From Buttiauxella sp. A111 (lineage in GTDB: Bacteria > Pseudomonadota > Gammaproteobacteria > Enterobacterales > Enterobacteriaceae): a stretch of DNA of 64,000 bases. Position 1 is the stretch's first letter. Every line of letters starts with the position of its first letter. The translations under genes and the position numbers were made by a program. Location of the stretch: positions 186,001 to 250,000 of the forward strand of contig NZ_BJFN01000005.1 of assembly GCF_014189855.1 (NCBI RefSeq). The letters run 5' to 3'. The notes below the pieces were generated by a model. That model worked only from the letters and a program-made list of their open reading frames with translations, had not been told where the DNA came from and did no database searches. This document shows, in pieces, positions 5,099 to 20,721 of the stretch.

Positions 5099-6751
5099 TT
5101 AGCCGCGTGACTGACATCCGCCACACGGTGTTGACAGGATCTGCTGGTAGAAGTCGTTACCTTTGTCATCGACCAGGATAAACGCAGGGAAATCTTCCAC
5201 TTCAATTTTCCAGATAGCTTCCATCCCCAGTTCCGGGTACGCCACACATTCCAGGCTCTTAATACTTTGCTGCGCTAATACTGCGGCCGGGCCACCGATG
5301 CTGCCCAGGTAAAAACCGCCGTGTTTGTGGCAGGCATCCGTCACCTGCTGGCTACGGTTACCCTTTGCAAGCATGAGCATGCTCGCGCCGTGCGATTGCA
5401 GCAGATCCACATAAGAGTCCATGCGGCCAGCCGTTGTCGGGCCTAACGAACCGGAAGCGTAACCGTCTGGCGTTTTAGCCGGGCCCGCGTAGTAGATCGG
5501 GTGATCTTTTACGTACTGCGGCAGTGCTTCACCGTTATCTAACAGTTCTTTGAGCTTCGCGTGGGCAATATCACGCGCCACGATGATGGTTCCGCTGAGG
5601 GCAAGGCGAGTCGAGACAGGATGCGCTGACAGGCTGGCCAGAATCTCTTTCATCGGTTGGTTCAGGTTAATGCGAACCACCTGACCTTCGCCCTGCTGGC
5701 GCAGTTCTTGCGGAATATACTGCCCAGGATTGCTTTCCAGTTTCTCAATCCAGATACCGTCGCGGTTGATTTTCGCTTTGATGTTACGGTCGGCAGAACA
5801 GGATACGCCCATGCCAACCGGGCAGGATGCACCATGGCGCGGCAGTCTGATGACCCGAATATCGTGAGCAAAGTATTTGCCGCCGAACTGGGCACCCAGC
5901 CCGAGATTCTGGGCTTCTTGCAACAATTGTTGCTCCAGTTCCACGTCGCGGAAAGCCTGGCCGTGTTCGTTGCCTTCGGTTGGCAGGCCATCGTAGTAAC
6001 GCGTGGAAGCCAGCTTAACGGTTTTCAGCGTGGCTTCCGCCGACGTCCCGCCAATAACAAATGCGATGTGGTAAGGCGGGCAAGCCGCAGTGCCGAGGGA
6101 ACGCATCTTCTCAACCAGATAGTTTTTCAACTTCGCCGGAGTGATGAGCGCTTTCGTTTCCTGATACAGATAGGTTTTGTTGGCGGAACCGCCACCTTTT
6201 GCCATGCACAGGAATTTGTACTCGTCGCCATCCACACTGTAGAGATCGATTTGCGCAGGCAAGTTGGTGCCGGTATTCACCTCTTTATACATATCCAGCG
6301 CGACGTTCTGCGAATAGCGCAGGTTATCTTCGGTATAGGTGTTGTAGACACCGCGCGCCAGCGCCGCTTCATCACCGCCATCGGTCCATACGCGGTGGCC
6401 TTTTTTGCCCATGATGATCGCGGTGCCCGTATCCTGGCAGGTCGGCAAAATCCCCTTAGCGGCAATTTCGGAATTGCGCAGGAACTGAAGTGCCACGTAT
6501 TTGTCGTTATCGCTGGCCTGTGGGTCGAGGAGGATGGAGGCCACTTGCTTCTGGTGAGAAGTCCGCAGCATAAAGGCTGCGTCGTGGAACGCCTGCTGTG
6601 CCAGCAGCGTTAGCGCCTCGGGTTCGATTTTCAATACTTCCTGGCCGCCAAACTCGCTGGTGGAGACATATTCACGGCTGAGCAGATAGTATTCGGTTTC
6701 ATCTGACGCCAGCGGGAAGGGATCCTGATAGACAAACGGTTTATTCGACAT
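5099..6751 (-). CDS. fumB: class I fumarase, FumB-like
   Basis: Oxygen-sensitive [4Fe-4S] fumarate hydratase interconverting malate and fumarate in the cytoplasm, 550 residues (E. coli FumA and FumB are 548). The cluster cysteines sit in [19 protein letters not shown] and ASCPVGMG. Several variable positions, such as [31 protein letters not shown] and [18 protein letters not shown], look like E. coli FumB, the anaerobic isozyme, rather than FumA. The C-terminus ([11 protein letters not shown]) is its own. It follows the antiporter gene on the same strand with a 57-nt gap that holds a hairpin. Context points to the malate-to-fumarate direction, feeding the fumarate reductase at 8958-11735. The FumB rather than FumA assignment is inferred. 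Confidence 0.9.
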
Positions 6752-6773
6752 AGCTCACTTACTCCATAAAGAT

Positions 6774-6801
6774 AAAAACCGCCGGAGAATGACTCCGACG
6801 G
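6774..6801 (-). terminator. hairpin and U-run between antiporter and fumarase genes
   Basis: On the minus strand a 9-bp stem (one G-U pair) with a 5-nt loop is followed by five U residues. It lies between the antiporter stop and the fumarase start. It is well formed for an intrinsic terminator, so read-through into the fumarase gene may be partial and the antiporter made in excess. The fumarase gene has no other obvious promoter in the remaining 22 nt. Confidence 0.6.
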
Positions 6802-6808
6802 TTATGAA

Positions 6809-8320
6809 TCAGAACATCATGGACATCCAGGGATAACCAATCAGTAAAAGGGCGGCGAGGAAAATGGCCCCAAAAATGCTGCCAAGGCGCCAGTAATCTT
6901 TGGTTGGCAGATAACCACTGCCGTAATAAATCGGGCTCGGACCTGTGCCGTAAGGTGTGATGATGCCCATTACACCTAGTGAAGTGACCATCAGCAGGAC
7001 GAAGACATTCATATTCATCCCTGGGATTGTCGCGGCAATGGTCAGCATTGCGGGCAAAAGCGCGGTGGTATGCGCGGTCGTACTGGCAAAAAGGTAGTGC
7101 AGCAGATAAAACGCCAGCAGCAGCACAACGGTTGCGACACCTGGTGAAATACCCTGCATTAATTCACCGCCTTCTTTACCGAGCCAGGCGATGAAACCTG
7201 TGGTTGAGAGGCCATCGGCAAGGGCGACCAGCGTGGCAAACCAGGCGAATGTGTTCCATGCCGCTTTATTGCCCGTAATATCAGTCCACGACAAAACGCC
7301 TGTCCACAGCATCAGCACGATAATCAGCAGCGCGGCCATGGCTGGCTCAATCCAGTCAGCAGCGAAAATCCACATCATCAGCGCGGAGCAAACAAACACC
7401 AGCAACAGAATTTCATTGCGCGACAGCTTGCCCAGCTTTTCCAGTTCACGATTAGCCCACAGCGGGACTTCATTGTTTATCTTCACCTCTGGTGGGTAAA
7501 ACCAGTAAGCGAGCAATGGCATGGTCAGCAGCAGCAGAATACCCAGCGGCAGGAAGGCGATGAACCAGGTGCCCCAGGAGATAGTGATGCCGACAATACT
7601 TTTCACCAACGCCAGCGCCAGCAGGTTCGGGGCCAGCGCCGAGAGGAACATAGAGCTTGTGATACAGGCGGCGGTAATGGCGACCCACATCAAATAGGAG
7701 CCTATCCGGCGCGCGCTTGGATCGTTGGGTTTTGAACCATACAGCGGTGGCAGGTTAGCGATAATCGGGTAGATAGTCCCGCCGCTACGTGCGGTATTGG
7801 ACGGTGTGAAAGGGGCTAATAACAGGTCGGCAAAGGCAATGGCGTAGCCCAGTGTCAGGCTGCGACGCCCGAGATATTTCACCAGAATCAGCGCCAGGCG
7901 ACGGCCAAACTGGGTTTTATCGTAGCCCGCAGCAAACATAAAGGCGCCGAATATCAGCCAGACCGTGGAGTTGCCGAAGCCGCTCACTGCCCATTTAAAG
8001 GATTGCCCGGCCAGCTTGAATTTCGGATCAGCCAGTTGCTCAGGGCTAAATAGAAGCCATTGGCTGAACAAGGCGATGACGACCACGCCAGTGATACCGA
8101 TAACCGCGCCAGGTAAGGGTTCAAAGATCAAACCGACAATCACCCCGACAAAGATAGCGAAGTAGTGCCAGGCGTAGGGAGGCAACCCTTCTGGTACCGG
8201 AACGAAAAGTAAAAGTACGGCCACAATTATCGGGAGCGCCATCATCAGCAGGCGTTTTTTATTCCCCGCTTTCGGACTGGCTGCGCCGGCTGGCGGTATC
8301 GCTGTCTGTTTATCTTTCAT
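6809..8320 (-). CDS. DASS-family dicarboxylate/tartrate/citrate:succinate antiporter
   Basis: Polytopic inner-membrane carrier of the DASS (SLC13/CitT) family, 503 residues, resembling E. coli TtdT and CitT. Visible family landmarks are the FTPSNTARSGGT motif, NLPPLYGSKPNDPSARRIGSY, and the C-terminal TPYGTGPSPIYYGSGYLPTKDYWRLG block. The N-terminus has a cytoplasmic tail of about 28 residues before the first helix. Relatives exchange an external di- or tricarboxylate for internal succinate. Beside fumarase and a fumarate reductase, malate or fumarate uptake against succinate efflux is the likely job; the exact substrate is inferred. The ATG at 8320 is chosen; an upstream TTG at 8335 would add five residues. 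The upstream region carries a perfect FNR box. Confidence 0.88.
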   Translation of the reverse strand: MKDKQTAIPPAGAASPKAGNKKRLLMMALPIIVAVLLLFVPVPEGLPPYAWHYFAIFVGVIVGLIFEPLPGAVIGITGVVVIALFSQWLLFSPEQLADPKFKLAGQSFKWAVSGFGNSTVWLIFGAFMFAAGYDKTQFGRRLALILVKYLGRRSLTLGYAIAFADLLLAPFTPSNTARSGGTIYPIIANLPPLYGSKPNDPSARRIGSYLMWVAITAACITSSMFLSALAPNLLALALVKSIVGITISWGTWFIAFLPLGILLLLTMPLLAYWFYPPEVKINNEVPLWANRELEKLGKLSRNEILLLVFVCSALMMWIFAADWIEPAMAALLIIVLMLWTGVLSWTDITGNKAAWNTFAWFATLVALADGLSTTGFIAWLGKEGGELMQGISPGVATVVLLLAFYLLHYLFASTTAHTTALLPAMLTIAATIPGMNMNVFVLLMVTSLGVMGIITPYGTGPSPIYYGSGYLPTKDYWRLGSIFGAIFLAALLLIGYPWMSMMF

Positions 8321-8957
8321 TTTGAGTATCTTCAAGTAGTTAAAAATACGTTGATATCAGGGAATAATCAGTCTGGTTTTTTTAGTTTAAAAACTTTCTT
8401 TAATTATAAATGACTAAATTGATTTATTCCTGACATGGCAATTTATCGCAATAAAATGTGCGTTAAATAAAAATTGGTATTATTTATATATTGCACCTTC
8501 ATACTGCATTGCAATTGATTGAGATCAAGAAAAACAGGCGGTGACGACTTTTTATTTATTAATAGTTATTCGATGTGGTGAATGACCTATTCTTTTTAAA
8601 ATGGCTCTAAATGTTAAGTGATGCTGCTTCTAAGTGATGAGTTATTTTATGTTGGTTCATGTAACTCGCTGATATTAATTAAATTAATTGCGCTAATTAC
8701 ATGGATTTTCCTTTGGAAAAAGTATCTAAATTGTTATCAATAATTTACTTTTCATAGTGGTGTTCTTTAAAAGTAATAATACAGAAGAGGTATTGTTGTT
8801 ATTGGTGGTATTAAATAGTTTTTTAACTAACGTAATTAATTTGGTAACTAAAAAAAGAGTTATATTAATGCTATGACAAAAGGAAAGAAAAAACATAACT
8901 AAAAATATTTCCGTCACCCTATTCTGAATTTCAATATTTAAAATCTGGAGTTTCAAT
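8321..8957. other. 637-bp divergent control region, antiporter and fumarate reductase
   Basis: Very AT-rich region between two divergent genes, with no credible gene. It contains a perfect FNR palindrome at 8515-8528. A pair of TAAGTGATG direct repeats lies at 8615-8623 and 8631-8639. The reductase side has a leader of roughly 400 nt if the FNR box drives it, or a nearer promoter that I cannot identify; TATATT near 8860 is a possible -10. A DcuR-type regulator is encoded nearby and may bind here, but its operator cannot be recognised by eye. Confidence 0.6.
8485..8528 (-). promoter_or_regulatory. FNR box with class II promoter toward antiporter gene
   Basis: TTGATTGAGATCAA at 8515-8528 is an exact match to the FNR consensus TTGAT-N4-ATCAA. 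On the minus strand, TATATA at 8485-8490 is placed as a -10 element that would put the start near 8479, with the FNR box centred about 41.5 bp upstream, the class II activation geometry. This predicts anaerobic induction of the antiporter-fumarase unit. The box itself is seen; the promoter assignment is inferred. Confidence 0.8.
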
Positions 8958-11735
8958 ATGACCAGTAACGATCGTATCTTGCATCCATTTACCCTACCCA
9001 ATGGAATTGAGCTGAAAAACCGCTTATTAATGGCACCGATGACAACCTGTACAGGTTATTATGACGGCACGGTAAGCAGCGAACTGGTGGAGTATTATCG
9101 CGTTCGGGCAGGCAGCATTGGTGGGGTCATCGTTGAATGTTGTTTTATCGACGATCTCGGCCTGGCGTTTCCTGGCGCTATCGGCATTGATAACAATGAA
9201 AAAATAGCCGGTCTGGCAAAAATTGCAGAAGCCATCAAGGCTGAAGGGTCCAAAGCGATTTTACAGATTTACCATGGCGGCCGGATGGTGGACCCGCAGT
9301 TGATTGGCGGACGGACGCCTGTTGCACCGAGTGCCCTGGCGGCACCGCGTGAAGGCGCTGTTGTTCCACGCGCCCTGACGGGTGATGAAGTCGAAGGCAT
9401 GATAGCTAAATTTGGTGAAGGCGTACGCCGAGCCATTCAGGCCGGTTTCGACGGCGTGGAAATTCATGGTGCCAATACCTATCTGATCCAACAATTCTAT
9501 TCACCTAACTCTAACCAACGCGATGATGAATGGGGCGGCAGCCGTGACAATCGCGCGAAATTCCCGCTGGCAATCCTGGAAATCACCCACAAAATGGCGC
9601 GCCAGTATGCCGACGACGCTTTTATTATCGGTTATCGCTTTTCACCCGAAGAGCTGGAAATTCCCGGTATTCGCTTTGATGACACCCTGTATCTGCTAGA
9701 AAAACTGGCCGCTCGCGGTGTGGATTATTTGCACTTCTCCGTTGGTGCATCGCTGCGCCCGTCGATTGTTGATACCACTGACCCGACTCCGTTAATTGAA
9801 AAATACTGTGCGATGCGTTCTGAGACGCTGGCGCAAGTGCCGGTGATGGGCGTCGGCGGCGTGGTGAATGCGGCAGATGCAGAACAAGGGTTGGAACATG
9901 GCTACGATCTGATCGCTGTGGGCCGCGCTTGTATCGCGTATCCAGACTGGACGGCACGCATTGCCCGTGGCGAAGAGCTGGAGCTGTTCATCGACAGCAC
10001 CCAGCGTGAAGCGCTGCATATTCCCGAGCCGTTGTGGCGTTTCTCGCTGGTGGAAGCGATGATCCGGGACATGAGCATGGGCGATGCCAAATTTAAACCG
10101 GGCGTGTTCGTCGAAACCGTGCAGGACGACGTGAATGAACTGGTTATCAATGTGAGTCTCGAAAACGATCGCATTGCCAACATCGAACTGGCCTCAAGCC
10201 CGGAACAAAGCGTGGCATTTACCACCAGCTTTGAAGAGATCCGTGAGCGCATTTTGTCTGCCAACACGCCGCATGTCGATGCGATTTCTGGCGCGACCAG
10301 CCAGAGCGAAGCGGTGAAAAAAGCGGTATCGAAAGCGATGCTGAAATCGAGCAAAGCGCGAGTCGCGGAAGAAGGCGGTGATGACAACTCACCGAAAAGC
10401 TACGATGTGATCGTCGTCGGCAGCGGCGGCGCGGGTCTGGCGGCAGCGATTCAGGCTCACGATGATGGGGCGAGCGTCCTTATTGTTGAAAAAATGCCGA
10501 CCCTCGGCGGTAACACCATCAAAGCGTCAGCCGGGATGAATGCCGCAGAAACTCGCTTCCAGCGCGTGAAAGGCATTCATGACAGCAAAGAAAAGTTCTA
10601 CCAGGAAACTCTGAACGGCGGGAAAAACAAAAACAATCCAGAACTGCTGCATTGTTTTGTTGAAAATGCACCGGAAGCCATCGAATGGTTGGCGCATCGC
10701 GGCATCATGCTTAACGATATCACCACCACGGGCGGTATGAGCATCGACCGCACCCACCGTCCACGTGACGGATCGGCGGTTGGTGGCTATCTGATTAGCG
10801 GGCTGGTGCGCAATATCACCCGACGCGGCATTGATGTGATGCTGGATACGTCGGTGGACGAGATCCTGACCAATAACGGTGTAGTGAGCGGTGTGCGCTT
10901 GCTGACTGATGAGCAAGAACGCATTGTGGTGCAGGCGAAAAGTGTGGTGGTTGCCACCGGCGGCTTCAGCGCCAACAGCGAAATGGTCGTGAAATACCGC
11001 CCTGACCTGACCGGTTTTGTCACCACCAACCACAAAGGAGCCACCGGCGGCGGTATCGCACTGTTAGAACGAATCGGCGCAGGCACCGTGGATATGGGCG
11101 AAATTCAAATCCACCCAACCGTAGAACAGCAAACCTCGTATCTGATTTCCGAATCGATTCGCGGCGGCGGCGCTATTCTTGTGAGCCAGCAAGGGCAGCG
11201 GTTCTTCAACGAAATGGAAACCCGCGATAAAGTCTCGGCATCGATCATTGCGTTGCCGGAACACTTTGCTTACATCGTCTTTGACGAACATGTGCGGGCG
11301 AAAAACAAAGCCTCAGATGAATACATCGCCAAAGGTCTGGTGACGAGTGCGAGCTCGCCACGGGAACTGGCGGAGAAGCTGGGAATGGATTATCACGCTT
11401 TCCTCGCCACGCTTGAGCGCTACAACGGTTTTGTGGAAAAGCAGTGTGATGACGACTTTGGCCGCACGACCGCGTTACGTGCGCCAGTAAACGAAGGGCC
11501 ATTCCACGCCATTCGTATTGCGCCAGGGGTTCATCATACGATGGGCGGCGTGACGATAAATGCCAAAACAGAAGTGTTGAATGCGGGTAATCAAACCATT
11601 CCTGGTGCCTATGCAGCAGGGGAAGTGGTTGGCGGCATCCACGGTGCTAACCGTATCGGGGGGAACGCGGTTGCGGATCTTATTATTTTCGGCACCCTGG
11701 CTGGGGGGCAAGCGGCGAAACGCGCCAGAGCCTGA
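8958..11735 (+). CDS. soluble NADH:fumarate reductase, OYE/FMN_bind/FAD_binding_2 fusion
   Basis: A 925-residue three-domain flavoprotein without signal peptide or haem motif, so cytoplasmic. Residues 1 to about 345 form an old-yellow-enzyme barrel (HGANTYLIQQFYSPNSNQR, WGGS) able to take electrons from NAD(P)H. About 390-470 is an FMN_bind domain with DAISGAT, whose Thr447 is the expected site of covalent FMN attachment. From 481 on is a fumarate-reductase FAD domain (GSGGAG at 488-493). The fumarate-site residues known from Shewanella flavocytochrome c are present: His719 (IQIHPT), Arg756 (ETRDK), His859/His860 (GVHHTMGG) and Arg899 (HGANRIGGNA). This is the architecture of the water-soluble NADH:fumarate oxidoreductase described in Klebsiella pneumoniae. 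The neighbouring apbE supports flavinylation. Urocanate or acrylate reduction is an alternative, less likely given His719. CTGGAG precedes the ATG. Confidence 0.87.
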   Translation: MTSNDRILHPFTLPNGIELKNRLLMAPMTTCTGYYDGTVSSELVEYYRVRAGSIGGVIVECCFIDDLGLAFPGAIGIDNNEKIAGLAKIAEAIKAEGSKAILQIYHGGRMVDPQLIGGRTPVAPSALAAPREGAVVPRALTGDEVEGMIAKFGEGVRRAIQAGFDGVEIHGANTYLIQQFYSPNSNQRDDEWGGSRDNRAKFPLAILEITHKMARQYADDAFIIGYRFSPEELEIPGIRFDDTLYLLEKLAARGVDYLHFSVGASLRPSIVDTTDPTPLIEKYCAMRSETLAQVPVMGVGGVVNAADAEQGLEHGYDLIAVGRACIAYPDWTARIARGEELELFIDSTQREALHIPEPLWRFSLVEAMIRDMSMGDAKFKPGVFVETVQDDVNELVINVSLENDRIANIELASSPEQSVAFTTSFEEIRERILSANTPHVDAISGATSQSEAVKKAVSKAMLKSSKARVAEEGGDDNSPKSYDVIVVGSGGAGLAAAIQAHDDGASVLIVEKMPTLGGNTIKASAGMNAAETRFQRVKGIHDSKEKFYQETLNGGKNKNNPELLHCFVENAPEAIEWLAHRGIMLNDITTTGGMSIDRTHRPRDGSAVGGYLISGLVRNITRRGIDVMLDTSVDEILTNNGVVSGVRLLTDEQERIVVQAKSVVVATGGFSANSEMVVKYRPDLTGFVTTNHKGATGGGIALLERIGAGTVDMGEIQIHPTVEQQTSYLISESIRGGGAILVSQQGQRFFNEMETRDKVSASIIALPEHFAYIVFDEHVRAKNKASDEYIAKGLVTSASSPRELAEKLGMDYHAFLATLERYNGFVEKQCDDDFGRTTALRAPVNEGPFHAIRIAPGVHHTMGGVTINAKTEVLNAGNQTIPGAYAAGEVVGGIHGANRIGGNAVADLIIFGTLAGGQAAKRARA

Positions 11736-11746
11736 TACTCAGCGAT

Positions 11747-11813
11747 TGTAGACCGGGTTAGCGTCACGCGAACCCGGCAACACCCCGGCGGCACGTTGCC
11801 AGCCGGGGCTACA
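11747..11813. repeat. REP-like palindromic element
   Basis: Two adjacent GC-rich palindromes between the reductase and apbE: CCGGGTT...AACCCGG and CCCCGGC...GCCGGGG, bounded by TGTAG and CTACA. The layout resembles enterobacterial REP/BIME units. It differs from the CCCTCACCC repeat family found elsewhere in the window, and it is the only repeat of this kind that I see in the accessory block. Confidence 0.7.
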
Positions 11814-11830
11814 GCAGAGGAGCCACAATT

Positions 11831-12784
11831 ATGCCCACCGACGAACGTCTCTATAGTTATTGCGCCGAACTGATGGGCTCGCCCATTCTTCTCAAACTCT
11901 ATTCCCACGATGAAGCGCTCGCCTCCCGCATCTTTCAACTGATTAAGCGTTATGAAGATTTACTCACGGTTAACCGTGCGCAATCTCAGGTGATGAGCAT
12001 CAACCATGCCGCCGGGCTACATCCAGTCACGGTCAGCCGTCCAGTTTATGCACTGATTAAATGCGCGAAGGCCGCCAGTATGGCGCAGGATAGCGCGTTC
12101 AATCTGGCGATTGGCCCGCTGGTGAAGTTGTGGCGTATTGGCTTTCAGGGGCACCGCGTGCCGTCAGCCGCGGAAATTGCTGAGCGCCTACCGCTGACGC
12201 GCCCGCAGGATGTGATTCTGGATGATGAGACTTGCAGCGTTTTTCTTGCGCAGGCAGGGATGGAGATAGACCTCGGCGCGATTGCCAAAGGCTACATTGC
12301 AGACAGAGTTCGTGACTCTCTTCGCCAGCAGGGGGTGAGTGATGCGCTGATTAACCTCGGCGGCAATGTGCATACGTTGGGGAACTGGTCTGTTGGATTA
12401 AAAAAACCGTTTGCGCCGGGCGATGCGCTTATTGGCAGTATTGAGGTCGCAAGCCAGTCGGTCGTCACCTCCGGCGTTTACGAGCGTTACTTCGAGCAGG
12501 ATGGCAAGCGCTGGCATCATATCCTCGACCCGCGCAGCGGTTATCCGCTGGATAACGAACTGGACAGCGTGACGATTATTTCCGCCAACTCTCTTGATGG
12601 TGATATCTGGACAACGCTGATTTACGGCCTGGGCGTGGTGAAAGGCTGTGCGGCACTACGCCATCATGAGGATATCGAGGCGATTTTTGTGACCAAAAAT
12701 CGCGACGTTATCCTCTCTTCGCAGCGTAATTTCCGCTTTTCGTTACTTGACGACAGCTACCGTCTTACTGGCTGTACTGCTTAA
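11831..12784 (+). CDS. apbE: ApbE-family FMN transferase
   Basis: FAD:protein FMN transferase, 317 residues. It would move FMN from FAD onto the threonine of the FMN_bind domain in the reductase just upstream. The family's MEIDLGAIAKGYIADRVRD and NLGGNVHTLG motifs and the C-terminal HHILDPRSGYPLDNELDSV metal/FAD region are present. There is no signal peptide or lipobox, unlike periplasmic ApbE, which fits a cytoplasmic substrate. It lies 95 nt after the reductase with its own GAGGAG Shine-Dalgarno, probably cotranscribed. Its last 20 nt overlap the convergent dcuR gene. Confidence 0.92.
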   Translation: MPTDERLYSYCAELMGSPILLKLYSHDEALASRIFQLIKRYEDLLTVNRAQSQVMSINHAAGLHPVTVSRPVYALIKCAKAASMAQDSAFNLAIGPLVKLWRIGFQGHRVPSAAEIAERLPLTRPQDVILDDETCSVFLAQAGMEIDLGAIAKGYIADRVRDSLRQQGVSDALINLGGNVHTLGNWSVGLKKPFAPGDALIGSIEVASQSVVTSGVYERYFEQDGKRWHHILDPRSGYPLDNELDSVTIISANSLDGDIWTTLIYGLGVVKGCAALRHHEDIEAIFVTKNRDVILSSQRNFRFSLLDDSYRLTGCTA

Positions 12785-13484
12785 GCAAGTTGTACTGTTC
12801 GGCAACCAGTCGATAGCGGTACACCGGGCGGCCAGTGGCACCATAATGAATGCTGGTATAAAGAATGTTAATTTGTGCCAGCCAAATCAGATATTTGCGG
12901 CAAGATACGCGGGAGATAGTGACGGCTGCCGCAAGCTCATCGGTGGAAAACTCTGAGCCCGGATGGTTATCAATCCACTGACAAATCGTGCGTAAGGTTT
13001 GTGCCGTCAGCCCTTTTGGCAAGCGCCGGTCGTCGGTGCTTTCCGGGCTCGCCCCATGCAGCAAGCGATCGACTTCCACCTGCTCATAGTACGGCTGGTT
13101 GGTCATCAGCTTGCGCTTCTCCCGCCACGCGTTCAGAGCCTCTTCAAAACGAGGGAACTGGAACGGTTTAATCAGGTAGTCCACCACGCCATAACGCAGG
13201 GATGTTTGCACTGTGGTGGCATCGGCTGCGGAAGTAATCATTATCACATCGATGGCGCGGCCAGTGGCACGGATCACCGGCAGGAGATCCAGCCCGCTGT
13301 GCTGTTGCATATAAACATCCAGCAGCACCAGATCGATCTCAAGTGCAGGGTCGCTGAGCATTTCTTTTGCCTGGGGTAGCGTTGAGGCTGTGCCACAGCA
13401 GCGGAAACCGGGAACTCTGGCCACATACATGCGGTTAAGCTCGGCCACCATGGCATCATCATCAACAATTAATACATTTATCAT
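12765..13484 (-). CDS. dcuR: DcuR-like response regulator
   Basis: Response regulator of the CitB/DcuR type, 239 residues, close to E. coli DcuR along its whole length. The receiver domain has the acidic pocket at Asp8-Asp10, phospho-acceptor Asp56 (LVLLDVY) and Lys106 (YLIKPF). The C-terminal output domain carries a helix-turn-helix around STDELAAAVTISRVSCRKYL. It is coupled to dcuS by a 4-nt overlap. The likely targets are the adjacent fumarate and malate genes. Whether this is the only DcuR in the genome or a second copy cannot be told from this window. Confidence 0.92.
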   Translation of the reverse strand: MINVLIVDDDAMVAELNRMYVARVPGFRCCGTASTLPQAKEMLSDPALEIDLVLLDVYMQQHSGLDLLPVIRATGRAIDVIMITSAADATTVQTSLRYGVVDYLIKPFQFPRFEEALNAWREKRKLMTNQPYYEQVEVDRLLHGASPESTDDRRLPKGLTAQTLRTICQWIDNHPGSEFSTDELAAAVTISRVSCRKYLIWLAQINILYTSIHYGATGRPVYRYRLVAEQYNLLKQYSQ

Positions 13485-15082
13485 GTTGGAATCCTATTAC
13501 TGTCCCAGGGAAGATGAACAAAAAATTGGGTATACACTCCGGGTTCAGATTCGACAGAAATACTGCCGCCCAATGTGTTTAATTGTTGGCGGGTAAGGAA
13601 CAGCCCGACACCACGGTTTTCACCTTTAGTTGAAAAACCTTTCGCGAAGACAGCCTCAATGTTGGCCTGCGCAATCCCCGGGCCGTCATCGCTCACTTCG
13701 CCACTTAGCCAACCGTTCTGGTAATGCAGCAGCACAGTGACTTCGCCTTCTGGCTGTTCGCTCATCGCATCCAGTGCATTTTCAATCAGATTACCGAGCG
13801 CCGTCACCAGCGCCGTTACCTGTTTCTCATTCACGCTATCAGGCACCAGGCTCTCTTCTGCCAGCGTCAGGGTGAAGCCCAGCTCTTTGGCGCGATGTAT
13901 TTTTCCCAGAAGAAAACCCGCCACGACCGGTGCTTTGATTTGATGCTGAATCGCGCCGATATCCGTCTGGTAATTATGGGCAGTTTGCAGCACGTATTCT
14001 TCAAGCTTGTCGTAACTCTTCATGTTCAACAGGCCGAGGATAACGTGCAGTTTGTTCATGAATTCATGAGACGTGGTACGTAGGGCATCAACATAATTCA
14101 CCATGCCATCAAGACGTTGAAGTAACTGACTGACTTCCGTTTTGTCGCGGAACGTACTTATCGCACCGACGATGGTTCCTTGATGATGAATGGGAACGGT
14201 ATTGCTGATAAGCAGCAATCCGTTGCAGGTAAGCTCGCGGTCATAAATGGGTTTGTCATGCTCTAACACTTCCTGAAGCTCTGCCAGCAGCGGCCCTTCA
14301 TCAACCTCATCGTCGGGAGAGGATTGCAGCATTTTTCTGGCTGCCGGGTTAACCAGCGTCACCTGACCGTGTTCATCCACGGCCATTACCCCTTCTTTTA
14401 ACGAATGCAGCATCGCCTGGCGTTGCTTGAGCTTGGCTGAAAGATCATGGGGCTCATGTCCCAGCAGTGCACGTTTCAATACGCGCACCAGACTCAGTGT
14501 GCCGAGCGTACACACCAGTGCGCTGAACAGAACGGTGAATAAGACGTTCCTGCGGCTACGCGCGAGTTGTTCGTCCACTTTGCTCAGTGGAACACCGACG
14601 GCGACGACACCAATCTGCTGGCGCTGGTCATTATAGACGGGCGTATAGACACGCAATGCAGGCCCCAGTGCGCCGTTGTTTATCGCGACATTTTCTTTGC
14701 CTTTCAGCGTGGGGTTAATGTCATTACCGATGTAATGCAGCCCAATGAGCTGGCTATTGGGATGCGAGTGGCGAATCCCGTTCATGTCGGTCACGACGGC
14801 GAAAAGCAAATGGTTGCGCTTCATTGCAGCAAGCGCCAGAGGTTGAACGATATTGCAGCTGGGTGGCAATGTCAGACCGCGTTTGACCTCCGGTGTATCG
14901 GCGAGCGTTCGCGCGACGGCCAATGCCGTATCTTTCAGACCGTCACGTGTCGCATTGCTGATTTGTGAAAACCACAGAGAGAACACCAACAACAATACAG
15001 TGCCAAGCACACTGCAAATCATAAGCGTCACCGTTGTGCTGAGTTTCATCGGGCGCTTACGGGAGGGTGATAAAACGGTCAT
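13481..15082 (-). CDS. dcuS: DcuS-like C4-dicarboxylate sensor kinase
   Basis: Membrane histidine kinase, 533 residues. Order: N-terminal helix (about 15-40), periplasmic PAS sensor (about 42-178), second helix (about 179-200), cytoplasmic PAS, then a kinase core with His339 (TTSHEFMNKLHV), N box NLIENALDAM and G box DDGPGIA. Ligand residues known from E. coli DcuS are kept: Arg104 and His107 (IRHSHP) and Arg144 (LRVYTP). The aromatic Phe120 of E. coli is Tyr117 here. These residues fit C4-dicarboxylate rather than citrate sensing. The ATG at 15082 (MTVLSPSRKRPMKLST) aligns with DcuS; the longer frame from 15160 adds 26 unlikely residues. Divergent from the MurQ-like gene. Confidence 0.9.
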   Translation of the reverse strand: MTVLSPSRKRPMKLSTTVTLMICSVLGTVLLLVFSLWFSQISNATRDGLKDTALAVARTLADTPEVKRGLTLPPSCNIVQPLALAAMKRNHLLFAVVTDMNGIRHSHPNSQLIGLHYIGNDINPTLKGKENVAINNGALGPALRVYTPVYNDQRQQIGVVAVGVPLSKVDEQLARSRRNVLFTVLFSALVCTLGTLSLVRVLKRALLGHEPHDLSAKLKQRQAMLHSLKEGVMAVDEHGQVTLVNPAARKMLQSSPDDEVDEGPLLAELQEVLEHDKPIYDRELTCNGLLLISNTVPIHHQGTIVGAISTFRDKTEVSQLLQRLDGMVNYVDALRTTSHEFMNKLHVILGLLNMKSYDKLEEYVLQTAHNYQTDIGAIQHQIKAPVVAGFLLGKIHRAKELGFTLTLAEESLVPDSVNEKQVTALVTALGNLIENALDAMSEQPEGEVTVLLHYQNGWLSGEVSDDGPGIAQANIEAVFAKGFSTKGENRGVGLFLTRQQLNTLGGSISVESEPGVYTQFFVHLPWDSNRIPT

Positions 15083-15256
15083 GTCGGTCCAGAAGAGTAA
15101 CGGTGAAGTGCAGATTATCGCAGATGGGGATGGGTACTTAAAGCCGTGCAAATCAAGCAAAACGGCCTTCAGAGGCGGGGAAGCGTGACCCTACTCGCAG
15201 GACTGGCAGATAAATATCCCTATAGTATGTGCGGACGCTTTAAATGGAGGTTTTTT

Positions 15257-16177
15257 ATGAGCAGTAAGCCAACCGGTTCAATGATGGGACGACGTAATAG
15301 CGGTACGGAAAATATCGATAAACTCACAACAGAGGATATGCTGGCAACAATCCTTAAAGACGACCGCGAAATCACTAATGCGATAGCCACCTGTTTACCG
15401 ACGGTCACCCGTTTAGTCGATCATGCGGTGGCGACTTTCAGCCGGGGTGGGCGTGTCGTTATCGTCGGTGCAGGTGCCTCAGGGCGCGCGGCGATGCAGG
15501 TGGCATGTGAGTTTGCCCCTGATACACATCATGGGCTTATTGGGTTGATTGCGGGTGGCCCAGAAGCAATGTTACAGGAGTTGGAGGCTGCCGCAGGCGA
15601 TTACGACCGTGGTATCAACGACTTGCAGGCCATTCATTTTAACCAAAATGATATGCTGCTTGGCCTGTCGGTCAGCGGTAAAACGCCATGGGTATGGGGT
15701 GCGCTCCGTTACGCGAGGTCGCTTGACGCGCCAGTGGCGGTTATCACCCAGGATGCCGGGAGTGAAGTGGCACAACTGGCGGATATCGTCATTGCACCAG
15801 ATACCGGACCGGAAGTGGTAGTGGGATTTGCTAATCCCAAGGCGCGGCTGGCTCAGCGGCAGATCCTCACGATGCTCTCGACGGGGTTGGCGATTCGCAC
15901 CGGCCGAGTTTATGGCAATTTGCGGGTCGATATTAACGCATCCAGCACCCGTTGGGCGGAGCGGCAGATAGCCATTGTGATGGAAGCGACGCACTGTTCT
16001 CGCGCACAAGCGAAGGAGACGCTGGGAAGCTGCAATCATGACTGTCGAACGGCGATTCTGATGTTGTTGACCGGGCTGGACGTCTGGAATGCGCGGGATG
16101 TGCTGGCTGAAAACAGTGAACACCTGCGGATTTCCCTTGAGGAAGCTAAGCGTCGGTCTGTCCAAAAAGCGTCGTGA
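15257..16177 (+). CDS. MurQ-like SIS-domain protein, possibly not a true etherase
   Basis: 306 residues, homologous over its full length to MurQ (N-acetylmuramic acid 6-phosphate etherase) and the GCKR sugar-phosphate SIS family. GAGASGRAAMQ, GLIAGGPEAM, GLSVSGKTPW and ANPKARLAQRQILTMLSTGLAIRTG mark the SIS core. Compared with E. coli MurQ, the catalytic Glu83 is kept (ACEFAP), but an ungapped alignment from GLIAGG to INDL puts Ala where E. coli has the second key residue, Glu114. The N-terminal TEGSN motif is also changed to GRRNS. It may therefore bind or isomerise a sugar phosphate, or act on another lactyl ether. No murP or PTS gene is near; neighbours are malate genes. GGAGG at 15246-15250 fixes the start. 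TATAGT near 15220 is a possible -10. Confidence 0.75.
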   Translation: MSSKPTGSMMGRRNSGTENIDKLTTEDMLATILKDDREITNAIATCLPTVTRLVDHAVATFSRGGRVVIVGAGASGRAAMQVACEFAPDTHHGLIGLIAGGPEAMLQELEAAAGDYDRGINDLQAIHFNQNDMLLGLSVSGKTPWVWGALRYARSLDAPVAVITQDAGSEVAQLADIVIAPDTGPEVVVGFANPKARLAQRQILTMLSTGLAIRTGRVYGNLRVDINASSTRWAERQIAIVMEATHCSRAQAKETLGSCNHDCRTAILMLLTGLDVWNARDVLAENSEHLRISLEEAKRRSVQKAS

Positions 16178-16210
16178 CATCAGCTAAAAATGCCGAGTCA
16201 TGGATGATAA

Positions 16211-16247
16211 AACGGTGAAAGCATGTTGATGCCTTCACCGTTTTTTT
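16211..16247. terminator. bidirectional terminator, MurQ-like gene and 2HCT gene
   Basis: Stem AACGGTGAA / TTCACCGTT with an extended GC-closed top, T7 on the plus side and an A-run on the other. It lies between two convergent genes and suits both strands. Confidence 0.85.
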
Positions 16248-16278
16248 ATGCCTGATGGGCAGGGTCAAGAAGGGGGGA

Positions 16279-17613
16279 TTACATGATCCATCCCAGCAGC
16301 AATGTTGCGGCGATGACGGTCGATGCCCCGCCAATACGGGTCGCAATTTGCGCGAAAGGCATCAGCGACATACGATTTGATGCCGACAATATCGCCACAT
16401 CACCTGTACCGCCCAAACCACTGTGACAGCACGTAACGATGGCCGCTTCAATCGGGTACATATTCAGGCGAGAGGCAATGAAAAAGCCGCTCAATGACAT
16501 GGTGATGACCACCGAACCGCACACCACGACATAGCCTACGGAAAAGACAGAGACGACGCTTTCCAGCGGCACATACAGCATTCCAAGCCCAATCATCAAC
16601 GGCCAAACTAACGCTGCCGAGACAAATTTGTAGCAGCTATGTGCACCCATCTCCATCGCTGACGGGATCAATTTTGCATATTTACAGAAGACAGCTGCCA
16701 GGATCATCAACACCGGCCCTGGAATGTGTACCAGTTTCTCAAACAAGCCGCCGACGATGAAAAAGGCGCAAATCATCAATAACCCGGCCCCCATCAGGTG
16801 AAAATCAGTTTGCTGAGAGCCCTGAGTCTGCGCAAACAAACTGTTGTCTTCGCGGCTGCGGATCAACATCCCATTACCGGTTAGCGACGGGCGACGGCTG
16901 CCAATACGGGCCAGAACACCTGCGCAAATAATCGCGAAGATATTACCTACCACTGCGGCAGGCGCCAGTTGCGCGACATACACATCCGGGGTTTGCCCCA
17001 GTATTGCGGAATAGGCGAGTGAAAGTGGCAGAATCCCTTCACCAATGCCCCCACCGATAATAGGTACGATGATAAAGAAGAATGTATGGTAGATGCTGTA
17101 GCCGAACATTGAACCGACCAGCAGACCGGTTAACACCGCCGTACCGGTTCCCACGACAAGTGGCACAAACATGCGGATCATGCCCTGGATGAGGATCGTC
17201 CGGTTCATACCTAAAATGCTACCCACCACTAAACACGCAATAACAAAATAAAGCAGGTTCGCTTCTTTCATCAGCAGGTGCACGGTAGCCATTGTTTGTT
17301 CTTCAAACAGACCGTAATAGACCAACACGGAAGGCACCATCAGACACAATATTGCCGGGCCGCCAATGTCTTTAAGAACGGGGATCATGCGACCTATTTT
17401 TGCAAATGAAAAACCCAGGGTCATGATAATAGCCAGGCCGCCAATCATATTTTTGGGAAGCAACCCGGAGGCACCTGAAACGGCAACAATGGTGGCAATA
17501 ACAACGAACAACAATATTGGTACGGAGCCGACTTCCATATTACCCAGAAGTCGCAGCGGTTGCCCACCTGAGGCGGGCTTTTCAATGGGATGATTTAGTG
17601 GGTTATTTTCCAT
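16279..17613 (-). CDS. 2-hydroxycarboxylate transporter (CitS/MaeN family)
   Basis: Inner-membrane secondary carrier of the 2HCT family, 444 residues, about eleven membrane segments. The two glycine-rich re-entrant loop motifs are visible as GGGIGEGILPLS and GGTGDVAIL, and the substrate-carboxylate arginine lies in the C-terminal QIATRIGGAS. Members transport citrate, malate or lactate, usually with sodium. Next to an AEC permease and malic enzyme, malate is the most likely substrate; citrate remains possible. Divergent from the AEC gene over a 417-bp control region. Confidence 0.88.
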   Translation of the reverse strand: MENNPLNHPIEKPASGGQPLRLLGNMEVGSVPILLFVVIATIVAVSGASGLLPKNMIGGLAIIMTLGFSFAKIGRMIPVLKDIGGPAILCLMVPSVLVYYGLFEEQTMATVHLLMKEANLLYFVIACLVVGSILGMNRTILIQGMIRMFVPLVVGTGTAVLTGLLVGSMFGYSIYHTFFFIIVPIIGGGIGEGILPLSLAYSAILGQTPDVYVAQLAPAAVVGNIFAIICAGVLARIGSRRPSLTGNGMLIRSREDNSLFAQTQGSQQTDFHLMGAGLLMICAFFIVGGLFEKLVHIPGPVLMILAAVFCKYAKLIPSAMEMGAHSCYKFVSAALVWPLMIGLGMLYVPLESVVSVFSVGYVVVCGSVVITMSLSGFFIASRLNMYPIEAAIVTCCHSGLGGTGDVAILSASNRMSLMPFAQIATRIGGASTVIAATLLLGWIM

Positions 17614-18030
17614 TTTTGTTACCTGATTTTATATTAATAAATAAAGTAGGGGAGGGCAAAATAATAGAGTAATAAAAAATAAAAGTGACGTAACAATTAA
17701 ATCACTATGCAACGATTTCGCTGAGAAACTAACATACGGTATGGTAATTAAATAGCCCTTGATATTTTTATTTTGATGGTTTTGTGATGCTGGTGGAATG
17801 TTCTATTTAAATAATTTAATTCTTATTTTTGTAAGTAAAGTTACTGAATGAGGGCGGTAGTAGGGCAAGCACAATGCGACATTTATATTTGTAAGTAAAG
17901 TAGCTGCCATGAAAGTATTTAAACAAGAGCAAGTGTGATTTCAATCACCCTACTATCAAAAGGGGATCGTTAAATTACCCGGACAAATAGATTGTGCCCT
18001 ACTTGTTTCATTATGCACTCTGGAGATTCC
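17614..18030. other. 417-bp divergent control region, 2HCT and AEC genes
   Basis: AT-rich, with no credible gene. It contains exact direct repeats TTTGTAAGTAAAGT at 17828-17841 and 17888-17901, spaced 60 bp, and a CRP-like site at 17934-17949. The repeats may be operators for a two-component regulator such as the nearby DcuR; this is inference. Confidence 0.6.
17934..17976 (+). promoter_or_regulatory. CRP-like site and promoter before AEC permease gene
   Basis: TGTGATTTCAATCACC at 17934-17949 fits TGTGA-N6-TCACA with one mismatch. TAAATT at 17971-17976 is placed as a -10 element that would centre the CRP site near -41.5. This predicts catabolite control of the permease-malic enzyme unit. Confidence 0.6.
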
Positions 18031-18978
18031 ATGCCATCACTACTATTACAATCTCTGTTCCCATTGGTATTTATCATGTTACTCGGATGGTTAAGTGGGA
18101 AGTTAGGCTACACTCGCCGCGAGGATGCCTCAGTTTTAGCTACGGTTGTTATCCGTTTTGCTCTGCCGTTTCATCTTTTTATCGGCGCATTAAATACTGA
18201 CCCTGAAAAAATACAGAACTTTTCATTTATGGCGGTTCTGATGATTGGTTTGATGGGCACCTGGTTCATCACGCTGCTCATCTCACGGTTCGTTTTCCGC
18301 CATGATATCAAGACCAGTGCGGTTCAGTCGCTGGTCTGTGCTTTCCCTGATATGGCGTATTTTGGTGCCCCGGTGTTGGCCGTATTAATCGGGCCAGAAG
18401 GCTTTTTAGGTGTACTGATAGGGAACTTAATCACCAGCGTATTTATGATACCGCTTACGATTATCCTGATTCGTATGGGGGATAAAAAGGGTGAAAATAG
18501 CCTCGACGATATCCACCCGGTTCAGCTTGTTCTGCAAAATCTTATCAAAGCGATAAAAAACCCGATTGTCTGGATCCCCATCTCTGGCGTGTTACTGAGC
18601 CTGGCTGGCGTGCAATTGCCGCATCTGCTTAGCGCACCAATAGAAATGGTAGGTAAAATTGCAGGCGGTCTTTCTCTGTTCGCACTGGGCCTTTTATTTT
18701 ATGGCGAGCGCCCAGCACTCAATGTTCAGACATTTACGAATATTAGTATTAAAAATCTCATTCAGCCTGGGTTGATGGCCGTTGCTGGTCTGGCTTTTGG
18801 CTTGAGTCATACCTTAATGCAGCAGGTGATTATCATTGGCGCCACTCCTTCAGCTATCGCCGCGGGAATGTTTGCACTGCGTAGTGATGCTTATATTGAA
18901 ACTGCCTCGTCATCAATTTTGATTGGTACCGCCATCGGTGTTTTCACCGAAGGAATAATGATTTATTTGATTTCTTAA
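18031..18978 (+). CDS. AEC-family permease, probable malate transporter
   Basis: Auxin-efflux-carrier family membrane protein, 315 residues, about ten helices in two inverted halves. SLFPLVFIMLLGWLSGKLG opens the protein, and the second half has GATPSAIAAGMFALRSDAY. Bacterial AEC members include malate and malonate permeases (MleP, MdcF). It lies 57 nt before the malic enzyme gene, so malate uptake is likely. The start at 18031 follows CTGGAG; the longer frame from 17992 adds 13 unsupported residues. Confidence 0.85.
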   Translation: MPSLLLQSLFPLVFIMLLGWLSGKLGYTRREDASVLATVVIRFALPFHLFIGALNTDPEKIQNFSFMAVLMIGLMGTWFITLLISRFVFRHDIKTSAVQSLVCAFPDMAYFGAPVLAVLIGPEGFLGVLIGNLITSVFMIPLTIILIRMGDKKGENSLDDIHPVQLVLQNLIKAIKNPIVWIPISGVLLSLAGVQLPHLLSAPIEMVGKIAGGLSLFALGLLFYGERPALNVQTFTNISIKNLIQPGLMAVAGLAFGLSHTLMQQVIIIGATPSAIAAGMFALRSDAYIETASSSILIGTAIGVFTEGIMIYLIS

Positions 18979-19035
18979 TTATCGCCAGGTAGCAATTTAA
19001 TTTACATTTAAAAATAAATATTCAGGAGCAGGTAA

Positions 19036-20721
19036 ATGTTAGTTAAAGAAACACTGTATACACCCTATAATGGTTCCCTGTTGCTCGAGAATCCATTATT
19101 AAATAAAGGCCTTGCTTTTACCGATAACGAGCGTCAGGCTTTTAATCTTCATGGTTTACTGCCCCATAAAGTTGAAACTATTCAGGAACAGACCGAACGT
19201 GCCTGGGATCAATTTTGCCAGTTTAAGAAAGACATTTCTCGTCATATCTATTTGAGAAATATTCAAGATACTAACGAGACGCTATTTTATAATCTGCTGC
19301 GCACGCATATGAAAGACACTCTGCCGATTATCTACACGCCAACGGTAGGAGAGGCCTGCGAGCATTTCTCTGATATTTATCGCCGTGGTAGAGGATTATT
19401 CATCTCCTGGCCAAACCGCCATAATATTGATGAAATGCTACAAAGTTTCTCCCGTAACGACATTCGCGTCATTGTCGTCACCGATGGTGAACGCATCCTG
19501 GGTCTGGGTGATCAGGGCGTGGGAGGGATGGGCATTCCAATCGGCAAACTCTCTTTATATACCGCGTGTGGCGGTATTCATCCTGCTTCGACATTACCGA
19601 TCATGCTGGATGTTGGCACCAACAATACCCGCCATCTGGACGATCCGCTGTATATGGGATGGCGCCATCCGCGCATCACTGACGATCAGTACATTGAGTT
19701 CATGGACATGTTTGTTGAAGCGGTGAAGAACCGTTGGCCAAATGTACTGCTGCAATTTGAAGATTTTGCCCAGAAAAATGCTACCAAATTGCTCAACCGC
19801 TACCGCGACACGTTGTGCTGCTTTAATGATGATATTCAGGGAACCGCAGCGGTGACTGCCGGAACGCTTATTGCTGCGGTTAAAACGGCGGGAGGACGCC
19901 TGCGCGATCAACGTGTGGTCTTCCTGGGCGGTGGTTCGGCAGGGTGTGGTATTGCTGAGAAAATTATCACGCTGATGATGGAGGATGGTCTGTCTGAAAG
20001 CCAGGCGCGCAATAATATCTTTATGGTTGACCGTTTTGGTCTGCTGACCGACGAGATGCCTAATCTTCTCGATTTCCAACAGAAACTGGTTACGGCAAGG
20101 GACGCGATTAGCCACTGGGATGTAGAGACGGCCAATATCTCACTGAAAGATGTGGTGCGTAATGCCCATCCGACGGTGATGATTGGCGTATCCGGGCAGC
20201 CTGGCTTATTTAGCGAAGAGATCGTCAAGGAAATGCATCAGCATTGCCCACGTCCCATCATTATGCCGCTCTCCAACCCGACCTCCCGTGCTGAAGCTCA
20301 GCCCAAGGATCTTCTCGAGTGGACACAGGGACAAGCGTTGGTTGCGACGGGCAGCCCGTTTGCACCGGTTTCCTGTCTGGGGCAAGAGCATGAAATTGCG
20401 CAGTGTAACAATGCCTATATCTTCCCAGGATTAGGGCTTGGGATACTGGCTGTAAAAGCCTCTCGGGTCACCGATGGCATGCTGTCCGTGGCCAGTAAGA
20501 CGCTGGCGGCGCATTCACCACTGGCCAACACCGGAAAGGGCGGGTTACTGCCTCCAGTCGAAAGTATTGAAGAGATTTCCATGGCAATTGCGCTTGAGGT
20601 CGCTCGCATGGCGCAGCAAGAAGGTGTGGCACCGATGATGAGTGAAGAGGAATTGCTCAATAGCATCGAAAAAACATACTGGAAAGCCAATTACACATCC
20701 TACAAACGCGCTTCACTTTGA
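19036..20721 (+). CDS. maeA: NAD-dependent malic enzyme
   Basis: Oxidative decarboxylation of malate to pyruvate, CO2 and NADH, 561 residues (E. coli MaeA is 565). The catalytic tyrosine lies in YTPTVGEAC. The metal-binding region is [11 protein letters not shown], followed by [12 protein letters not shown] and the nucleotide-binding [13 protein letters not shown]. Its length and the QFEDF and FNDDIQGT motifs match the large MaeA/MleA class, not the long MaeB fusion. A CAGGAG Shine-Dalgarno precedes the ATG. Cotranscription with the AEC permease is likely. It may be an extra copy; a housekeeping maeA would normally lie elsewhere, which cannot be tested here. Confidence 0.92.

Follow-up and report, generated by a model that had tools for sequence, protein, structure and literature searches.

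A probable two-module island for C4-dicarboxylate fermentation between livF and ugpB of Buttiauxella sp. A111

Introduction

What does a block of ten genes lodged between livF and ugpB contribute to a Buttiauxella cell? We addressed this question for Buttiauxella sp. A111 (contig NZ_BJFN01000005.1), using a stretch of 64 kb (hereafter the window) in which the block occupies positions 5099–20721. An original prediction, made from the DNA letters, had described the genes as one self-contained unit that ferments malate and fumarate. The evidence presented here makes it reasonably probable that the block is a horizontally acquired, two-module island for C4-dicarboxylate fermentation, in which malate is disproportionated under the control of the island's own DcuSR.

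Results

The island consists of a widespread core and a linked malate module

All ten open reading frames (ORFs) were confirmed between livF and ugpB, which directly adjoin each other in E. coli K-12. Profile models placed the ten products in the families originally predicted, although the MurQ-like protein has diverged at a catalytic Glu. The genes are as follows.

5099–6751, minus strand: fumA-like class I fumarase (malate to fumarate); NCBIfam NF011920, 1187.6 bits against a cut-off of 1094; 85% identical to K-12 FumB
6809–8335 (start perhaps 8320), minus strand: DASS transporter, probable C4-dicarboxylate:succinate antiporter; PF00939
8958–11735, plus strand: predicted soluble NADH:fumarate oxidoreductase (Frd; OYE / FMN_bind / FAD_binding_2); 89% identical to the K. 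pneumoniae ATCC 13883 protein
11831–12784, plus strand: ApbE flavin transferase, probably cytoplasmic; PF02424
12765–13484, minus strand: DcuR-type response regulator; NF007750, 431 bits against a cut-off of 262; 67% identical to K-12 DcuR
13481–15160, minus strand: DcuS-type C4-dicarboxylate sensor kinase; NF008298, 766 bits against a cut-off of 520; 57% identical to K-12 DcuS
15257–16177 (15257 being the likely start by our own reading), plus strand: diverged MurQ-like SIS-domain protein; domain and family models
16279–17613, minus strand: 2HCT-family carrier (hct), probable malate importer; PF03390, 500.1 bits against a cut-off of 26.2
18031–18978 (18031 being the likely start by our own reading), plus strand: AEC-family permease; PF03547
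19036–20721, plus strand: malic enzyme, probably of the NAD type, outside the K-12 MaeA group; family models and tree

Gene order was compared among the best 80 of 545 relatives of the Frd locus, 15 of which end early at contig ends. The order fumA-DASS-frd-apbE-dcuR-dcuS was present in 65 of these 80 loci, with the SIS gene in addition in 44, and an island-type malic enzyme together with an AEC gene lay within the fetched flanks of 6. Across 392 genomes of the family, the contiguous ten-gene set occurred in only 4. The island is therefore not one fixed unit, as had been proposed; it is composed of two modules, a widespread core and a separate but linked 2HCT-AEC-malic enzyme module.

In the same 392 genomes, with malic enzymes counted at no less than 71% identity and Frd at E ≤ 1e-250, Frd was found in 23 of the 25 genomes with an island-type malic enzyme versus 70 of the 367 others (Fisher p = 8e-14); 2 of those 70 have only a partial Frd match. 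Counting by genus, the one way in which relatedness was handled in this test, gave 14/15 versus 22/139 (p = 2e-9). The genes thus do co-occur in other genomes, as the original prediction required. When genome G151 was added, Frd was present in 23 of 26 malic enzyme genomes (19/20 in the malic enzyme group of the window and 4/6 in the other group described below).

Furthermore, the two modules are adjacent in 11 of these 26 genomes, which represent 8 genera, and they are joined in five relative orders. The malate module lies at the SIS end with either hct inward (the window) or the malic enzyme inward (G270), or it lies at the fumA end with the malic enzyme inward (G210 and G094), with aec inward (G198, G077, G274 and G245, the last having an frd remnant) or with aec turned round (G329, G228 and G327). 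The ten genes of the window and those of G210 are the same set in circularly permuted order, and the two loci are collinear in two DNA blocks of 79% and 76% identity.

Several variants of the two modules were also observed. Directly behind the malic enzyme and in the same orientation, G163, G376 and G317 (genus g2) carry a DcuR paralogue (64–66% identical; ~18.2–19.6 kb), and no DcuS was found within the fetched stretch; this paralogue may be an orphan regulator belonging to the malate operon. In G371 (L202), malic enzyme and aec genes form a second pair, which has a dcuSR of its own (51–59% identical) at ~7.1–11.6 kb; this genome gave no Frd match at E ≤ 1e-250. Two Frd-type reductases, one of them ~72–74% identical, are present in G045, G081, G178, G182, G201, G261, G263, G275, G329, G385 and G395; the second possibly uses another substrate.

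A block conserved in the frd promoter recurs in the malate promoter

In the two divergent island promoters, at the dass/frd and hct/aec intergenic regions, we found the following sites.

8515–8528, no strand assigned: FNR box TTGATTGAGATCAA in the DASS/frd interval; found without mismatch in 69 of the 72 distinct orthologous intergenic regions
17934–17949, no strand assigned: CRP box TGTGATTTCAATCACC upstream of aec; TGTGAnnnnnnTCAC in 10/10 distinct orthologous hct/aec intergenic regions
8381–8393, minus strand: putative DcuR box, DASS promoter; position weight matrix match, third best in the window with the seeded matrix and fourth with the seed-free one
8819–8831, plus strand: putative DcuR box, frd promoter; seeded matrix only
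8840–8852, plus strand: putative DcuR box TTTGGTAACTAAA, frd promoter; training site
17827–17839, plus strand: putative DcuR box, hct/aec promoter; second best in the window with both matrices
17887–17899, plus strand: putative DcuR box, hct/aec promoter; fifth best with both matrices

Counting repeats, the exact FNR palindrome occurred in 73 of 76 dass/frd regions, compared with 0.3% of shuffled sequences, and its spacers vary. For a seeded matrix of 13 bp, we used the site lying closer to frd in 72 dass/frd intergenic regions. Applied to both strands of the window, it returned as its top five matches positions 8840, 17827, 8381, 8819 and 17887, all of which fall in the two island promoters. 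Against 300 dinucleotide shuffles, the best hct/aec matches reached p < 0.025 in 9 of 10 regions, and 10 of 13 DASS-side matches reached p ≤ 0.03.

As a seed-free control, we took eight 13-bp blocks, those with the highest conservation in the dass/frd alignment, with starts at least 8 columns apart. The 8840 block, eighth by information content, alone recurred in hct/aec (7/10 regions at p ≤ 0.03, the other three at 0.05–0.07), and its best matches in the window were 8840, 17827, 12685, 8381 and 17887. The other seven blocks were rejected as a shared box, each matching 0 or 1 of the 10 hct/aec regions. The MaeR-type repeat TTATTWAA was rejected as well; it was present in 10/11 hct/aec and 65/76 dass/frd regions, but shuffles gave 25% and 58%.

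On K-12 sequence, the matrix gave its two highest ranks to the promoters of frdA (first) and dcuB (second) among 35 intergenic regions no shorter than 100 bp; these came from 86 kb made up of stretches picked for holding DcuR targets, with base composition left uncorrected. Both genes are direct DcuR targets according to the accessible part of PMC9429925. We consider the conserved frd-promoter block that recurs in the malate promoter to be a putative DcuR box.

The core resembles the soluble fumarate reductase system of Klebsiella

The reductase and ApbE of the core are orthologues of the K. pneumoniae soluble fumarate reductase and its flavin transferase. The single Frd chain holds OYE (residues 8–341), FMN_bind (397–461) and FAD_binding_2 (483–905), the domain set of the KPK_2907 type; the flavinylation motif DxxSGAT is present as DAISGAT at residues 441–447, and apbE is the next gene. 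When the FAD domain was aligned to flavocytochrome c3, His365, Glu378, Arg402, His504 and Arg544 were identical and Thr377 was replaced by Ser; we assume here the numbering and the fumarate-site roles (His, Arg acid catalyst, Arg) of the latter enzyme. Judged from the activity reported for the Klebsiella orthologue, Frd is probably an NADH-dependent fumarate reductase. The N-terminus of ApbE has no signal-like stretch by eye, no signal-peptide program having been used. By our own reading of DcuS against K-12, Arg107, His110 and Arg147 are kept and Phe120 and Phe149 are changed to Tyr, all residues that presumably form the C4-dicarboxylate site.

Gene content and putative regulatory sites point to probable malate disproportionation

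Taken together, gene content, co-occurrence, linkage and the conserved boxes make disproportionation of malate to succinate and pyruvate products the likely outcome of the pathway. Malate would enter via the 2HCT and/or AEC carriers. Part of it would be converted by the island malic enzyme, going by what is known of the family, to pyruvate, CO2 and NADH, and the other part would be dehydrated by FumA to fumarate, which the soluble flavinylated Frd would reduce with that NADH to succinate. Succinate may then leave through the DASS antiporter in exchange for malate or fumarate. The predicted net reaction is 2 malate to 1 succinate, 1 pyruvate and CO2; such a 1:1 split would balance redox, since one NADH is formed per malate oxidised and one is used per fumarate reduced. 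Host enzymes may turn pyruvate into acetate, formate and ATP. With regard to control, the conserved boxes suggest that the island DcuSR responds to C4-dicarboxylates and switches on both divergent promoters via the shared box, that FNR confines the reductive arm to anoxia and that CRP places the malate arm under catabolite repression. The oxidative arm may also be active in the presence of oxygen, given that a CRP box but no exact FNR box was found at the malate promoter.

A number of observations weigh against this pathway. The three malic enzyme genomes with no Frd match at E ≤ 1e-250 all belong to genus g141, and one of them (G245) retains the frd remnant. Adjacency of the modules was not seen in 15 of the 26 malic enzyme genomes, among which the contig of G263 stops just past the malic enzyme. 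The exact FNR box was found in 0/11 hct/aec regions, and in 1/11 when one mismatch was allowed, while the CRP box is present. The seeded matrix was not blind, because its seed was chosen by eye after both promoter alignments had been viewed, and it fails in the hct/aec region of G082 (p = 0.15); the third best seed-free match in the window (12685) falls within apbE. The matrix misses the K-12 dctA promoter, the third known DcuR target, and gave no match above 10.3 in the fetched 36–40 kb of G097, G205, G085 and G119, which have aec-me or me without hct (me denoting the malic enzyme gene). By eye, the putative box is unlike the footprinted DcuR motif TTATCTCACATAATTTAT given in the accessible part of PMC10636207. 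Finally, a canonical frd operon lies beside epmA in the host genome (FrdA 92%, FrdB 91%, start of FrdC 81%; the fetched stretch ends before frdD), so that independence of quinones belongs to the route and not to the cell. The claim that redox is balanced without quinones or a membrane fumarate reductase is consequently only partly right: it would hold for the proposed route, but not for a genome that encodes the canonical enzyme.

Some of these observations would fit two separate functions lying side by side, with the core acting, while sugar or glycerol is fermented, as an electron sink that draws on fumarate, malate or similar acids, and hct-aec-me serving a CRP-controlled, mainly aerobic malate catabolism. 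This arrangement would account for the exact FNR box at dass/frd and the CRP box at hct/aec, for the 70 genomes (including the 2 partial matches) in which the reductase occurs without an island-type malic enzyme and for the 15 of 26 genomes in which the modules were not seen side by side. It does not explain the strong one-way dependence of the malic enzyme on Frd, the joining of the modules in so many orders or the putative box common to both promoters, and we regard it as unlikely. The pairing of malate oxidation with soluble NADH-fumarate reduction, as originally envisaged, is better in keeping with these three findings.

An alternative concerns the substrate. The same machinery could act mainly on an outside substrate other than L-malate, with the 2HCT or DASS carrier importing citrate, tartrate, citramalate or fumarate instead. 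Of the K-12 carriers, TtdT (tartrate) shares 55% identity with the DASS protein and CitT (citrate) 49%, and the solved 2HCT relatives are citrate carriers. However, no citrate lyase or TtdAB is present among the ten genes, the malic enzyme takes malate and the 2HCT protein scored under the citrate-carrier cut-offs (CCS TIGR00783, 477.5 vs 549.05; CitS NF047943, 255.7 vs 600), which makes a substrate other than malate improbable.

Among the Buttiauxella genomes compared, one species carries the insertion

The genus set comprised 12 genomes, namely that of the window, 1 more of the same species and 10 of other species. As the original prediction had suggested comparing livF-ugpB junctions, we did so within the genus, and the island was absent from the junction in 10/10 genomes of other species. 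Their livF-ugpB spacing was 198–222 bp in 8/10, and 565 bp (L115) and 1031 bp (L112) in the two with other small inserts. Island Frd (E ≤ 1e-200), 2HCT (E ≤ 1e-3) and DcuS (E ≤ 1e-100) were matched in 2 of the 12 genomes, both of the window species and identically arranged. The island is thus an insertion specific to one species in this set, with both positives belonging to that species and none of the 10 others carrying it. No place covering 80% of the island was found in any of 5426 E. coli genomes. The G+C content is 52–55% in the core genes, 51% in hct, 45% in aec and 50% in the malic enzyme gene, a spread fitting a composite origin. No integrase or direct repeats were seen by eye in the junction letters, no repeat tool having been used.

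Since L112 and L115 carry other inserts there, the livF-ugpB junction appears to be a minor insertion spot; by eye, the L112 insert resembles a short toxin-antitoxin-type gene pair. A junction that accepts other inserts would agree with a block of catabolic genes that hitch-hiked by chance and has no coordinated role. The co-occurrence, the repeated linkage and the conserved regulatory boxes all speak against such a block, and we consider it highly improbable.

In a tree of 35 malic enzyme sequences, in which rows under ~69% identity were mostly not placed, the island enzyme fell outside the K-12 MaeA group (5 rows, 100/100). Island-type malic enzymes formed two groups, one of 20 rows including the window (94/87) and one of 7 rows (93/84), with their joint clade not resolved. 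A relocated, vertically inherited MaeA was ruled out by the 100/100 placement. Vertical MaeA origin is also disfavoured by the same-genus genomes of other species, of which 3/10 have a malic enzyme (E ≤ 1e-100) that is only 55% identical.

Elsewhere in the host genome, the only other malic enzyme found has 764 amino acids (MaeB-size), and no further DcuS-like kinase exceeds 33% identity. DcuS was matched at E ≤ 1e-100 in 0/10 same-genus genomes of other species. For these two reasons, the island appears to have brought the cell's only DcuSR. A FumA/B-type enzyme of the host (87% identical to FumB) sits beside an AspA/FumC-family gene, and a third class I fumarase (67% identical to FumB) lies away from the island at G000:C2:79142-79759 (L153).

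The MurQ-like SIS protein is probably not an etherase

The SIS gene was found at 47 of the best 80 Frd loci; it occurs in Klebsiella, Enterobacter and Kosakonia loci and is absent from the Pantoea, Erwinia and Rahnella Frd loci inspected. Its product is 38% identical to K-12 MurQ and passes two subfamily MurQ models of NCBIfam (260.1 vs 168; 258.3 vs 255), while scoring under the equivalog TIGR00274 (236.2 vs 302). At the position of MurQ Glu114, which we take to be the second catalytic Glu, the window has Ala; of the 54 aligned rows, 45 show Ala and 6 show Glu. In addition, GFANPK replaces the MurQ GSSRMK stretch, to which we likewise assign a catalytic role. The Glu83 position is Glu in 34 and Asp in 14 aligned rows, and SGxTP is largely kept. 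The rows of this alignment include repeated contigs, and the region near 102–111 is gapped in up to 23 of them. A reading as a MurNAc-6-phosphate etherase was rejected on these residues, though two subfamily models pass; the protein is probably not an etherase.

Discussion

The locus can be understood as a core for fumarate reduction to which a malate-oxidising module has been linked. We would go further only tentatively, to a mobile, self-regulated pathway in which the imported DcuSR governs both arms, one transfer makes a DcuSR-less lineage a quinone-independent malate fermenter and the MurQ-like protein is an added regulator or enzyme tied to C4-dicarboxylate sensing; this extension is possible but doubtful. 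If malate is disproportionated as proposed, the malic enzyme partner would give soluble NADH-fumarate reductases a physiological setting beside the membrane enzyme. The analysis also offers a candidate DcuR box joining both arms and a MurQ-like protein kept in the locus. By titles and abstract starts, no description of the ten-gene set or of a two-module package with a shared box was found among the open papers listed in our searches; the reductase and its ApbE were known before.

In K. pneumoniae, the soluble fumarate reductase is reportedly induced by anaerobic fumarate or malate, as a 2020 FEMS study is said to have found. The window resembles the KPK_2907 system of this species in its orthologous reductase and ApbE, and K. 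pneumoniae ATCC 13883 (L007) has the same core order. In the available parts of their descriptions, the Klebsiella enzyme is NADH-dependent and was already known along with its flavin transferase (PMC12052999, PMC4348036, PMC11325843), and it requires cytoplasmic ApbE (PMC12052999). Unlike in K. pneumoniae, the core of the window is joined to 2HCT-AEC-malic enzyme at livF-ugpB; no such module was found in the 10-kb flanks of L007.

The closest parallel to the malate arm is maePE-maeKR of Lactobacillales, whose MaeP belongs to the 2HCT family; the island shares with it a malate carrier, a malic enzyme and a citrate-family two-component system. As far as the accessible part of its description goes, that system combines these three components, is induced by L-malate and repressed by glucose (PMC5457438), and is presented without a fumarase, antiporter or fumarate reductase. 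Its MaeR repeats, TTATT(A/T)AA, differ from the island box.

The E. coli dcuB-fumB, dcuSR and frdABCD genes likewise bring together a fumarase, a C4-dicarboxylate transporter and DcuSR, and the island matrix ranks the frdA and dcuB promoters at the top. In contrast to the island, E. coli uses a membrane fumarate reductase, which is quinol-dependent, and DcuB, its frdABCD lies ~30 kb from dcuSR and there is no malic enzyme partner there. Finally, the glycosomal fumarate reductase of trypanosomatids is NADH-dependent. Like the island enzyme, it is a soluble reductase with an ApbE of its own, which according to the accessible part of PMC12052999 is fused to the reductase; this fusion and its setting in a eukaryote organelle distinguish it from the Buttiauxella core, in which Frd and ApbE are encoded by neighbouring genes.

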